In this document: positions 32,859-36,599 of the stretch, one piece after another
How positions within the stretch are numbered: position 1 is the first letter of the stretch
Layout: each line of letters begins with the position of its first letter
Assembly (NCBI GenBank): GCA_946403295.1
Contig: CAMIZL010000014.1
Span: forward strand, 1-56,113
Length of the DNA stretch: 56,113 nt
Reading direction: 5' to 3'
DNA from: an uncultured Clostridia bacterium
Lineage (GTDB): Bacteria; Bacillota; Clostridia; Lachnospirales; Lachnospiraceae
Position numbers and translations under genes: made by a program
Notes under the pieces: model-generated
Databases searched by the model: none
The model's input: the letters and a program-made list of their open reading frames with translations, nothing else
Told to the model about the DNA's origin: nothing

Positions 32859-32870
32859 AGACGGTCGGAC

Positions 32871-33033
32871 GGGCCGGATAAAAGTCCGGAAATGCGGACA
32901 CATAACGGACGGGCCGGACAAAAGGCCGGAAAATGCGGACACATAACGGACGGGCCGGACAAAAGGCCCGGAAATGCGGACACATAACGGACGGGCCGGA
33001 TAAAAAGCCGGAAAATGCGGACGTAAAACGGAC
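32871..33033. repeat. Four-unit 40-41 bp tandem repeat between tldE and ung
   Basis: Units start at 32871, 32911, 32952 and 32993, each beginning GGGCCGGAYAAAA and ending near CACATAACGGAC. Every unit can fold a small stem-loop (CCGGA with TCCGG, or GGGCC with GGCCC), and the sequence differences between units fall largely within these arms. The array starts 12 bases after the tldE stop and ends just before the ung ribosome site. Confidence 0.9.
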
Positions 33034-33047
33034 ATACGGGGAAAGAT

Positions 33048-33722
33048 ATGAGCGGAATAAGCGGGGTTTGGTACGAAAAATTAAAGGAGCAGTTCGAGAT
33101 GCCTTATTACAGGGATCTTTATACCTTTGTGAGGGACGAATATTCACGCGGACCCGTTTATCCTCCCGCGGAGGATATCTTCAACGCGTTCCACTATACC
33201 CCGTACGAAAAGGTCAAGTGTGTGATCCTCGGACAGGATCCGTATCATGAGCCGGGGCAGGCACACGGGCTCTGCTTCTCGGTGAGACCCGGAGTTCCCG
33301 CACCCCCGTCTCTCCTTAATATCTATAAGGAACTTCAGGACGATCTTTCATGTAAGATCCCCAATAACGGTTATCTCGAAAAATGGGCACGCGAGGGAGT
33401 ACTCCTTTTGAACACGTGCCTTACTGTGCGTGCGCATTACGCCAATTCGCATAACGGGCACGGCTGGGAACAATTTACCGACGCTGTGATCAAAGCGGTG
33501 GACGAAAAGCCCGAACCCGTTGTGTTCTTACTTTGGGGAACGCCTGCCGGAAGGAAGAGCGAACTCCTTACAAACAAGTCTCATCTTGTCCTTAAGGCTC
33601 CTCATCCGAGTCCCCTTTCGGCATACAGAGGCTTCTTCGGTTGCAGACATTTCAGTATCGCGAACGCATATCTCAAAGAGCACGGCATAGAGCCGATCGA
33701 CTGGCAGATAGAGGATATTTGA
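33048..33722 (+). CDS. ung: Uracil-DNA glycosylase, family 1
   Basis: A 224-residue base-excision repair enzyme that removes uracil from DNA. The catalytic water-activating Asp64 is in GQDPYHEPGQAHGLCFSV, and the catalytic His186 is in HPSPLSAYRGFFG. LLLNTCLTVRAHYANSH is the uracil-pocket strand. Length and motifs are normal for the family. It starts at ATG 33048 after GGGGAAAG, directly behind the tandem repeat array. Whether it is co-transcribed with tldDE depends on read-through of that array. Confidence 0.97.
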   Translation: MSGISGVWYEKLKEQFEMPYYRDLYTFVRDEYSRGPVYPPAEDIFNAFHYTPYEKVKCVILGQDPYHEPGQAHGLCFSVRPGVPAPPSLLNIYKELQDDLSCKIPNNGYLEKWAREGVLLLNTCLTVRAHYANSHNGHGWEQFTDAVIKAVDEKPEPVVFLLWGTPAGRKSELLTNKSHLVLKAPHPSPLSAYRGFFGCRHFSIANAYLKEHGIEPIDWQIEDI

Positions 33723-33766
33723 CAGGGAGCGTCACATAAGCGTTAAGATCCGTTACCCTAGTGTAT

Positions 33767-33789
33767 TACATCCGAAAATGTAGTATAAT
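33767..33789 (+). promoter_or_regulatory. Possible promoter/operator before chorismate synthase-like gene
   Basis: TATAAT (33784-33789) is preceded by an inverted repeat TACAT-N6-ATGTA (33767-33782) that would overlap a promoter spacer. No clear -35 is seen. The site is about 80 bases before the start codon. Confidence 0.4.
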
Positions 33790-33867
33790 GGTTCAGATGT
33801 AGATAATATCATCGATGGCGCACGGACGCGGAAGATTTTTATGGCACATGGCCTGAAAGGATGAAAA

Positions 33868-34968
33868 ATGGCAGGTTCTGTTTTTGGAAAATTTTTTACA
33901 TGCACCGCATGGGGTGACGCATATACGCAGGGGATCGGCGCTGTTGTCGACGGAGTTCCCGCGGGTCTTAAGATCACGGAGAACGACATCCAGCAATACC
34001 TCAACAGGCGCAGAGTCTGGGCTGCCTCGGTTCCCGCAAAGAGACATGAAAGCGATTTCGTGACCATTGCTTCGGGCCTTGAAAACGGTATTACTACGGG
34101 CGGACCCGTTTCGCTCACCATCATGAACAGCGCGGTCAAAGAAAAAGGCTCGGCGACGGTTCCCGGAACCATAAGACCCGGACAGGGCGACCTCGCGATG
34201 GTTGCAAAATACGGTGCGACGACCGAAAAGGTTACGCTTTATCCTTCGCGTATCCAGTCGGCGATCACCGCGGCAGGTGCCATTGCAGTAAAGATCCTTA
34301 AGGAGATCGGCGTAAGCTTTTGTACATATGTCAGCTCCGTGGGACCTGTGTCGATCTCATATGCGAACTGTTCGGTTGATGCACTGAAGAAGAGTCCTCT
34401 TCTTATGCCCGATCCTCAGGCGAGTGCGGAGGCTATGGAATATGCCCGCAACGTTGCGGCCGAACATGATTCGGCGGGCAGCACCGTGGAAGTGGTCGTG
34501 ACGGGCATGCCGGCCGGTGTCGGAGAACCGCTGTTCGGATCGCTCTCGGCACAGATAGCGAGCGCGGTCATGGCGATCGAGTCGGTAGCCGGTGTTGAAT
34601 TCGGCGACGGCATAAAGTCGAGCACAAGAAAAGGCAGTGAGGACTGCGATTCATTTGCGTTCGGCGACGAGATAAGGAAGCTTTCAAACCACTCGGGCGG
34701 TATCGAGGGCGGCATGAGCGACGGTTCGGAGATCGTTGTGAGAGCGGCGCTCAGACCCGATCCCTGGGCAGGTCAGGATCATGATACATTTAATGTCCAC
34801 GGCACACCCGTTTCGCTTTCGGCAAGGGAAGCGTACGATGTCGTTACGGCTCCGAGACTTTGCGTTGTCATTGAGTCCGTGGTGGCCATGGCGATCGTTG
34901 ACAGGCTTTTTGAGAACATGAGTGCAAAGATCGAAAACGTTAAGAAGTTTTACGACGAGGCTAAATAA
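33868..34968 (+). CDS. Chorismate synthase-like protein lacking the catalytic histidines
   Basis: A 366-residue protein that aligns over its whole length with chorismate synthase (opening AGSVFGKFF, GAVVDGVPAGL, TTGGPVSLTIMNS, IRPGQGD, SNHSGGIEGGMSDG). Signature residues differ. The GESHG box reads GDAYT, so Tyr19 stands for the invariant His. The RPGHAD box reads RPGQGD, so Gln106 stands for the second invariant His. The GGGRSSARET flavin/substrate loop reads VTLYPSRIQSAIT, and the C-terminal GRHDP box reads VHGTP. Chorismate formation is therefore doubtful. Automatic annotation would probably call it aroC. It is not beside other aromatic pathway genes. It starts at ATG 33868 and overlaps the next start in TAATG. 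Confidence 0.85.
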   Translation: MAGSVFGKFFTCTAWGDAYTQGIGAVVDGVPAGLKITENDIQQYLNRRRVWAASVPAKRHESDFVTIASGLENGITTGGPVSLTIMNSAVKEKGSATVPGTIRPGQGDLAMVAKYGATTEKVTLYPSRIQSAITAAGAIAVKILKEIGVSFCTYVSSVGPVSISYANCSVDALKKSPLLMPDPQASAEAMEYARNVAAEHDSAGSTVEVVVTGMPAGVGEPLFGSLSAQIASAVMAIESVAGVEFGDGIKSSTRKGSEDCDSFAFGDEIRKLSNHSGGIEGGMSDGSEIVVRAALRPDPWAGQDHDTFNVHGTPVSLSAREAYDVVTAPRLCVVIESVVAMAIVDRLFENMSAKIENVKKFYDEAK

Positions 34969-36599
34969 TGGGAAAGATCATCAACACATTGCGATACGGC
35001 AAAGCAAAGACCAAGACATTTATCATTTCGGTCTTTGTTTTGATGGTTGTTGCGATCGTGCTTGGGATCATAGGTATAAACGGGATGAACATCATCTTAC
35101 TGGGAATTTCAATGGTGCTGTTCATCATCTGTATTTTAATGGTATTTAAGCTTGAGGGCGCAACCGCCGATGTGAACGCGGACGACGAAACATCCGTCCC
35201 GAAGCCGGGCGCTGCAGGCAGAGCCGGCGCTGCGGGAACCGCAAGGGTAGCGGGAGAGGCCGCAGGCCGACCCGGTGCGACGGGAGCCGCAAGGGTAGCG
35301 GGAGAGACCGCAGGCCGACCCGGTGCGACGGGAACCGCAAGGGTAGCGGGAGAGACCGCGGAAAGACCCGGTGCGGAAAGCCCCGAAAGAGAAGCGCTCC
35401 GAGGGGATACGGAGGGTGCTTTGAGAGAAAAGCCCCGAAAGATGATCGCAAAGACACGCGGTCCCAAGGCGATCAGGGCACAGCTTGAAAAGCGACTTCT
35501 CGTCGAGATCATAAAAGCTAATAAACGAAGCGCCGTACTTGATAAAAAAATGTACGGAAAGCGCATGAAAGAAGCCGTGAAGGCTCGTAACCGCAAATTG
35601 AAAGAGATGCGTGCACGAGCTGCCGGGGAAAACGAAAGTATCGCAGAGCAATTGCGTGACGCCGGAGGACGCGGTGAGCGCGCAGCCGCAGCCGAAAGGG
35701 GACGCGGTGAGCGCGCAGCCGCAGCCGAAAGGGGACGCGGTGAGCGTGATGCGGCAGCCGAGAGGGGACGCGGTGAGCGTGATGCGGCAGCCGAGAGAGG
35801 ACGCGGTGAACGCGATGCGGCAGCCGAGAGAGGACGCGGTGAACGCGCCGGCGAGCAGGACAGGGAAAGCGACAGTTTACCCGAGAGAGGGCACACCGTC
35901 GAAAGAAAGACGGATTACAAGCTCTATACGAAGAATGAGATAAAGAGACTCCGTAAGGTTTATAAGATACCTAAGGACGCATGCAAGATAATCATTGATT
36001 CGTGCAAGAGTCTCGCTATTGACCATGCACCTGCATTCTTCTGGGTTAAGAAGGGCAGGATATATATTCTCGCATTTGAGGAAAGCGCCAGATGCGAGAC
36101 GCTTCCGATGAGCAAAATGAAGGTTTCTTACAAGAAAAACCTTCGCGAGGACGAGATCATAAAATATAACTCGATGCGCGAGATGGGTGTCTATAAGGAT
36201 TTTGAGGACATGATGCCCACGTTTTCGGTGCACGGCGGTGCAACGGGCAACGAGTATTTCAAGAATCTCTACGTTCTCGGAAAAGACCTTGAGATCACGC
36301 CCCGTTCGCTTCGTTCGCTCATGACGCAATTTGATTTTGAGATCAGGATATTCGACAGTCTCGGGATCAAGGGCAATTATTCGGAGTACTTCCAAAAAGC
36401 CTATGAGCAGAGGATCATGTGGACCGACGGTGTCATTTCGCAGAACCAATACCAGAACAATATCAGGGATATACTTCAATCAATGGTTGATGACGACTCG
36501 ATCATACGATATGATTTCATGGATGATCTTGCGAAGATGGTACACCACAGGCTGATCACGGACGAATATGCCGAATTTTACAAGAATAAGAGATTATGA
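34968..36599 (+). CDS. Repeat-rich membrane protein of unknown family
   Basis: A 543-residue protein I do not recognise. Residues 15-60 hold two adjacent hydrophobic segments. Then come a low-complexity region with three 16-residue repeats (ARVAGETAGRPGATG type, 91-138), a basic helical stretch (160-220) and five to six 11-residue repeats (DAAAERGRGER, about 234-294), very Arg/Glu/Gly rich. The C-terminal 240 residues are well-formed, globular and without repeats (KNEIKRLRKVYKIPKDACKI, FFWVKKGRIYILAFEESARC, FDFEIRIFDSLGIKG). Topology suggests a membrane anchor with a long cytosolic tail. Its start overlaps the stop of the chorismate synthase-like gene, so the two are made together. Confidence 0.82.
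   Translation: MGKIINTLRYGKAKTKTFIISVFVLMVVAIVLGIIGINGMNIILLGISMVLFIICILMVFKLEGATADVNADDETSVPKPGAAGRAGAAGTARVAGEAAGRPGATGAARVAGETAGRPGATGTARVAGETAERPGAESPEREALRGDTEGALREKPRKMIAKTRGPKAIRAQLEKRLLVEIIKANKRSAVLDKKMYGKRMKEAVKARNRKLKEMRARAAGENESIAEQLRDAGGRGERAAAAERGRGERAAAAERGRGERDAAAERGRGERDAAAERGRGERDAAAERGRGERAGEQDRESDSLPERGHTVERKTDYKLYTKNEIKRLRKVYKIPKDACKIIIDSCKSLAIDHAPAFFWVKKGRIYILAFEESARCETLPMSKMKVSYKKNLREDEIIKYNSMREMGVYKDFEDMMPTFSVHGGATGNEYFKNLYVLGKDLEITPRSLRSLMTQFDFEIRIFDSLGIKGNYSEYFQKAYEQRIMWTDGVISQNQYQNNIRDILQSMVDDDSIIRYDFMDDLAKMVHHRLITDEYAEFYKNKRL
35237..35380. repeat. 48-bp in-frame tandem repeat
   Basis: Three 48-bp units (35237, 35285, 35333) encode 16-residue repeats of the ARVAGETAGRPGATG type in the membrane protein. 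The third unit diverges. Confidence 0.88.
35668..35850. repeat. 33-bp in-frame tandem repeat
   Basis: Five 33-bp units start at 35668, 35701, 35734, 35767 and 35800, and a partial one at 35833. They encode ERGRGERDAAA-type 11-residue repeats. Units are nearly identical in neighbouring pairs, a sign of recent slippage or unequal exchange. Confidence 0.92.

Follow-up and report, generated by a model that had tools for sequence, protein, structure and literature searches.

The window analyzed here is a 56,113-nucleotide stretch of DNA (contig CAMIZL010000014.1) from an uncultured member of the Lachnospiraceae, and its forward strand carries, at 33868-34968, an intact reading frame with an ATG start that encodes a 366-amino acid protein related to chorismate synthase (AroC). 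A first-pass annotation, made from the letters alone, had described this protein as an AroC paralog in which the full fold can be traced although both catalytic histidines are replaced. Our data indicate that the gene is probably a neofunctionalized AroC paralog. Against PF01264 the protein scores 288.6 bits (curated cut-off 27) across positions 1-326 of the 327 in the profile, and by the measure of that family it has the whole AroC fold. It also scores above the cut-off of the TIGR00033 aroC model (285.9 bits versus 212.2) and below that of the stricter equivalog model NF003793 (293.8 bits versus 321). In phmmer alignments to solved AroC chains, GDAYT lies under the GESHG-type boxes and RPGQGD under RPGHAD; together with an alignment of 160 proteins, these exclude a shifted alignment that hides the histidines. 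Tyr19 (codon at 33922..33924, within GDAYT) and Gln106 (within RPGQGD, 34174..34191, where Arg103 and Asp108 are kept) therefore stand in place of the catalytic histidines, with the coordinates and residue numbers that had been given for them. The rewriting of the SSARET loop and the RHDP box was also borne out: SSRET reads YPSRIQ (LYPSRIQ, 34237..34257, replaces the GRSSRET region and keeps Arg128), and GRHDP reads EAYDV (34828..34842), with Arg322, His323 and Pro325 gone and Asp324 kept. In addition, RPDPWA (34753..34770) replaces KPTPSI, changing Lys296, Thr298, Ser300 and Ile301; all of these segments lie on the forward strand.

The 160 distinct AroC-family proteins in the alignment (identical ones counted once) include 108 that represent the usual AroC of the family (family type) and 37 of the kind that serves as the canonical enzyme in the genus of the window. 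Position 19 is histidine in 106 of the 107 family-type proteins with a residue there and in 36/36 of the genus-canonical type, and position 106 is histidine in 108/108 and 37/37, respectively. The exception at position 19 (L081, 444 bits, the sole AroC of genome G346) is an otherwise ordinary AroC in which the first catalytic histidine is leucine (WGESLG), and this may be a natural variant or a sequencing error. Among the paralogs, none has histidine at position 19 (0/14 with a residue there) or at position 106 (0/13); across the holders, the replacements are Tyr, Gly, Leu, Gln, Ala or Val at the first of these sites and Gln, Thr, Leu or Cys at the second. Of 66 positions that are nearly universal in the two ordinary AroC types, 40 are retained in the window protein and 26 are not. 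Leaving three fragments (L041, L043 and L044) out of the 12-paralog counts, H19, T57, Y95, H106, D119, A239, K296, S300, I301, G321, R322, H323 and P325 are absent from every full paralog covering them, and the motif that holds Lys296 and Ser300 is presumably a contact to the phosphate of flavin mononucleotide. The paralogs keep R48, E61, R103, D108, R128, D261, N274, G277, G278 and Gly282, and position 324 is Asp or Glu in all 13 that cover it. His60 (codon at 34045..34047, forward strand) is present in 11/12 full paralogs, and its frequency in family-type AroC is 0.00.

The window copy is not the only aroC of its genome (2.39 Mb, 99.2% complete). As the first-pass annotation had anticipated, a canonical AroC (411.9 bits) is encoded on another contig, among genes read by eye as aroF, tyrA, aroB, aroA, aroE and aroQ, with the 3-dehydroquinate synthase (aroB, C1:120545) backed by a family search. 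This enzyme is only 28% identical to the window protein, and identities between 12 full or nearly full paralogs and 10 canonical enzymes of the genus range from 26 to 37%. By comparison, the AroC of approximately 320 of the 384 family genomes with a match aligns to the window protein with E values under about 1e-65, at 38-44% identity among the matches listed. A tree of 68 proteins picked from the 160 united the 12 paralogs in one clade, on one side of a 100/100 branch that faces a 100/100 branch with the genus-canonical type; many branches between the two sides are weakly supported. The paralog clade thus belongs on the side of the family-common AroC type, apart from the AroC of its own genome. 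A genus that took another AroC type for the pathway would thereby have freed its family-type gene, a direction and order of events that we infer; the paralog may also have entered from outside. Two canonical AroC subtypes, approximately 45% identical, occur inside the genus (L018, L019, L020, L022 and L023), and by this sequence difference the ordinary enzyme of the genus itself seems to have been exchanged.

The paralog is present in 14/24 genomes of the genus, all 14 of which also have canonical AroC, and in 11 of these holders the frame is full length and free of stops. The incomplete copies are split into two pieces on two contigs (G017), cut at a contig end (G022) or shortened by a deletion (G023). 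Nine genomes, including G007 (100% complete) and G009 (97%), have the canonical gene alone, and one (G015) has no AroC match. A tblastn search for paralog remnants at the ung locus of seven paralog-free genomes found none, returning two chance matches (E 4.2 and 4.5). Chorismate synthase is usually present once: family-wide, 363 of the 384 matching genomes show one matching stretch. A PF01264 search of 60 outlier genomes of the family, including all 20 other genomes with more than one matching stretch, found no full-length histidine-free AroC beside an ordinary one outside the genus, although most single AroC were not checked for the motifs and one homolog collection comprised the best 80 of 351 places. 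A second copy in G327 is partial, at a contig end, and keeps both histidines, and G033 has two short AroC pieces.

Selection was estimated from the ratio of nonsynonymous to synonymous substitution (dN/dS; NG86 method), a rough measure here as many dS values exceed 1. For the paralogs of six close genomes, dN/dS was 0.014-0.049 in 15/15 pairs (dS 0.6-2.0); for canonical AroC of the same genomes it was 0.038-0.066 in 12/15 pairs, the other three giving no dS. Protein identity among the six genomes is 88-98% for the paralog versus 83-93% for canonical AroC, and the paralog of one sister-group pair (G013-G005) has a dN/dS of 0.10. The paralog is therefore under strong purifying selection, on a par with the ordinary copy, and the earlier argument against decay stands. 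In the tree, the branch into the window's group carries 1.38 changes per column, and its members lie approximately 0.1 from the window protein, a history of much change followed by strong constraint.

The neighboring genes do not name a function for the paralog. The uracil-DNA glycosylase gene ung (33048..33722, forward strand) lies near the paralog in 14/14 holders, in one of them (G014) beyond a gene identified by sight as ThiF-like and on the opposite strand, and its function is probably unrelated. Between ung and the second TldD/PmbA gene, a 41-base unit is repeated in tandem about four times (90% match, 32866-33033). Downstream, at 34968..36599 on the forward strand, is a gene for a repeat protein of an unlisted family, which the first-pass annotation had called a membrane protein and, from a start/stop overlap, had tied to the paralog. 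That tie is not supported: the protein has matches in 22/24 genomes of the genus, including 9/10 without the paralog, lies on another contig than the paralog in two holders (G014 and G019), and in a close relative (L105) the paralog and downstream genes do not overlap. A pairing was thus rejected, and the protein is a neighbor rather than a conserved partner. It belongs to a block (a patatin-like gene, identified by sight, the repeat protein, a small protein, ABC-F and a glycosyltransferase) that also exists without the paralog, and in five relatives its 59-65% identity is below that of ung, the paralog and ABC-F. Its gene contains 48- and 33-base repeats (35214-35375 and 35667-35847). A scan of 33600-35100 found no promoter upstream of the paralog; the sole promoter-like site sits at the end of the gene, where 1.3 are expected by chance in the region.

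Upstream, a HAD-family hydrolase gene directly precedes the paralog in 7/14 holders, all in sister lineages: G010 (L160:8290-8898) and G019, G017, G022, G013, G023 and G005, whose copies share 67-78% identity with the G010 gene product. The G013 copy contains a stop, and the window's clade yielded no close ortholog (matches of 30-40% identity or none). As a fixed partner, the hydrolase was rejected on its occurrence in only half of the holders. Directly behind the paralog, G010 encodes a large right-handed beta-helix repeat protein (L160:10166-12529), and G019 a different large protein.

Histidine-free AroC is not confined to this genus. A first motif check of 15 regions, mostly low-scoring AroC genes, yielded three proteins with the same Tyr and Gln and 12 with both histidines. 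In total, 8/137 genomes of the class, from four families (f14, f24, f47 and f56), encode an AroC of a separate branch in which Tyr and Gln replace both histidines in 8/8 cases: L250 (G468), L251 (G535) and L253 (G440), whose genomes belong to one genus, L257 (G492), L258 (G430) and L259 (G513), from two other families, and L266 and L268. Another AroC, that of G505, is cut before the first box and has RPGHAD. The GESY and RPGQA motifs lie in the sole PF01264 gene of all six Tyr/Gln genomes tested; 3-dehydroquinate synthase is present in 6/6 of these genomes and chorismate-using enzymes in 5/6, and in G440 and G535 the gene is flanked by what look by eye like genes for aroA and shikimate kinase. 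All six proteins examined keep T57, K296 and R322, which the window's group has lost, and 8/8 have an R[SN]DP box with both Arg and Asp. Judged by sequence and context, the Tyr/Gln AroC probably works as a chorismate synthase without either histidine. A quick tree of 47 of the earlier 68 proteins and 10 new ones placed the Tyr/Gln branch (support 100) and the window's group (support 99) in separate clades and revealed no common origin of the two; this separation suggests that the Tyr/Gln pair arose two times. The histidines, called invariant by the first-pass annotation, are thus nearly universal in ordinary AroC but not in this branch. What sets the window's group apart is the extra loss of T57, K296 and R322 and the ordinary AroC in the same genome.

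Several published properties of AroC bear on the consequences of these changes (literature residues were equated with positions 19, 48, 103, 106, 128, 322 and 324 by motif in the present analysis). According to a review, His110 of Streptococcus pneumoniae protonates flavin N1, and in Neurospora crassa replacing the flavin-side histidine with alanine costs only 20-fold; an aspartate primes flavin N5, and losing it costs 300-600-fold (PMC3509576). Protonation of the leaving phosphate is ascribed to His17, and this first catalytic histidine is called present across all known species (PMC2386126). Docking to a fungal AroC placed 5-enolpyruvylshikimate 3-phosphate (EPSP) in contact with R46, R103, R129, R354 and R362 (PMC11633415).

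Because the whole fold is present, a canonical aroC exists in the genome and the gene is not decaying, neofunctionalization is the probable history of the window gene. It shows the marks expected of a neofunctionalized paralog or pseudoenzyme, namely loss of catalytic residues, an intact homolog in the same genome and purifying selection; of the residues expected of a functional AroC, it lacks the GESHG histidine, the RPGHAD histidine and the RHDP arginine and keeps the aspartate. The protein would fold like AroC, and a positively charged substrate side would remain (Arg48, Arg103 and Arg128, with the acid at 324) that would bind a shikimate-, EPSP- or chorismate-like anion. Chorismate would no longer be made, and the protein would act through binding, as a regulator, scaffold or carrier; an enzyme with a different reaction is less likely. 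On this residue pattern, we consider it somewhat more probable than not that the AroC-derived protein makes no chorismate and acts through binding, with a shikimate-like anion bound by Arg48, Arg103 and Arg128. A broader proposal, which we advance tentatively and with less confidence, is that the genus recast an AroC fold of the family type as an enzyme or ligand sensor with a different role and uses another AroC type for the pathway, and that other clostridia independently make chorismate with a histidine-free AroC.

The evidence for a binding protein is not one-sided. The missing histidines are weak evidence that the enzyme is dead, since the Tyr/Gln AroC is the sole AroC of the six genomes tested and probably works; the first-pass proposal of a pseudoenzyme or flavin mononucleotide protein with a new reaction therefore keeps its basis in a whole-fold, non-decaying paralog beside a canonical aroC, but not histidine loss as its proof. 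In the window's clade, the lost positions vary like the background (6/26 versus 65/299, Fisher p 0.81; the six variable ones do not include 19, 106, 296 or 322), and the replacements differ among subclades, so no common new active site is visible. The structure model is uncertain in the pocket loops (residues 51-54 and 92-96 at a predicted local distance difference test score below 50), and 19 of the 30 rows of the alignment that fed it are ordinary AroC. Finally, within the family-type part of the tree the branches have weak support and do not single out the exact sister of the paralog. Each of these points weighs against the binding reading.

The alternative that survives best, though we consider it unlikely, is a new enzyme: flavin and a shikimate-like substrate would still bind to the scaffold, and Asp/Glu324 and possibly His60 would catalyze a different reaction. 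Retention of the acid at 324 in every paralog covering it, matched by motif to the N5-priming aspartate (PMC3509576), favors flavin chemistry, and near-uniform His60, the kept Asn274, Gly277, Gly278, Gly282 and Asp261, and the hydrolase gene upstream in half of the holders, which could mean a phosphorylated metabolite, agree with it. Conversely, loss of Lys296, Ser300 and Thr57 from every full paralog covering them counts against flavin chemistry, and the same loss of Ile301 and replacement residues that differ among subclades count against the new enzyme; the hydrolase lacks a close ortholog in the window's clade and has a stop in G013.

A further possibility, improbable in our estimate but made likelier by the Tyr/Gln branch, which also makes the binding reading less sure, is that the window protein is still a chorismate synthase that works via Tyr19 and Gln106, as that branch apparently does. 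The shared pair in what is there the sole AroC, two of its genes between aroA and shikimate kinase, the TIGR00033 score of the window protein and the modest cost of the N. crassa substitution (PMC3509576) are consistent with this idea. However, among paralogs the pair is limited to the window's six-genome clade (in sisters, position 19 is occupied by Gly, Leu, Gln, Ala or Val and position 106 by Thr, Gln, Leu or Cys), the window's group lacks the Thr57, Lys296 and Arg322 that the branch keeps and forms a separate clade, and every holder has an ordinary AroC.

Less probable still is a role as partner to, or regulator of, the ordinary AroC, in the manner of dead trypanosome paralogs that activate partner enzymes (PMC5201418, PMC3663545, PMC6221367): both proteins occur in 14/14 holders, but they are only 26-37% identical and fall on opposite sides of a strong branch, and nine genomes have canonical AroC without the paralog. 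A decaying gene or assembly artifact, suggested by the three incomplete copies in G017, G022 and G023, is very improbable given the low dN/dS at dS 0.6-2.0 in six genomes and the stop-free, full-length frames of 11/14 holders.

To our knowledge, the AroC fold carries out one reaction only. A fold kept, a pocket rewritten and strong selection thereafter amount to a natural experiment on the capacity of this scaffold, and the paralog and the Tyr/Gln branch make the role of both histidines directly testable. Because it passes the TIGR00033 cut-off, the paralog is also an annotation trap. The Tyr/Gln AroC, apparently the sole chorismate synthase of some clostridia, contrasts with the universality of the first histidine stated in PMC2386126 and is worth separate study. 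Among the papers listed, literature searches showed none on AroC without catalytic histidines or on a dead AroC paralog.

Compared with AroC proper (PF01264, TIGR00033, EC 4.2.3.5), the window protein shares the whole fold and length, 40/66 near-universal positions, the arginine trio on the substrate side and the acidic residue at 324, and differs in lacking both histidines, the RHDP arginine, Thr57 and Lys296 and in having a separate ordinary AroC in its genome. With the Tyr/Gln branch (f14, f24, f47 and f56) it shares the replacement of both histidines; that branch, a separate clade at 31-33% identity, differs in being the sole AroC (six genomes tested) and in its SARET or SGRET loop, Lys296, Arg322 and Thr57 (six examined). 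Among paralogs of other enzymes, the trypanosome S-adenosylmethionine decarboxylase (AdoMetDC) prozyme and deoxyhypusine synthase likewise illustrate a dead paralog retained beside a live enzyme, although those dead and live paralogs form a complex, whereas none is known here and the live AroC belongs to a different type. Plant SKL1 and SKL2 derive from shikimate kinase, and SKL1 mutants have a chloroplast phenotype (PMC2593004); despite the different organism and enzyme, they are like the window paralog in being duplicates of a shikimate-pathway enzyme that lost the activity and were kept for another role.
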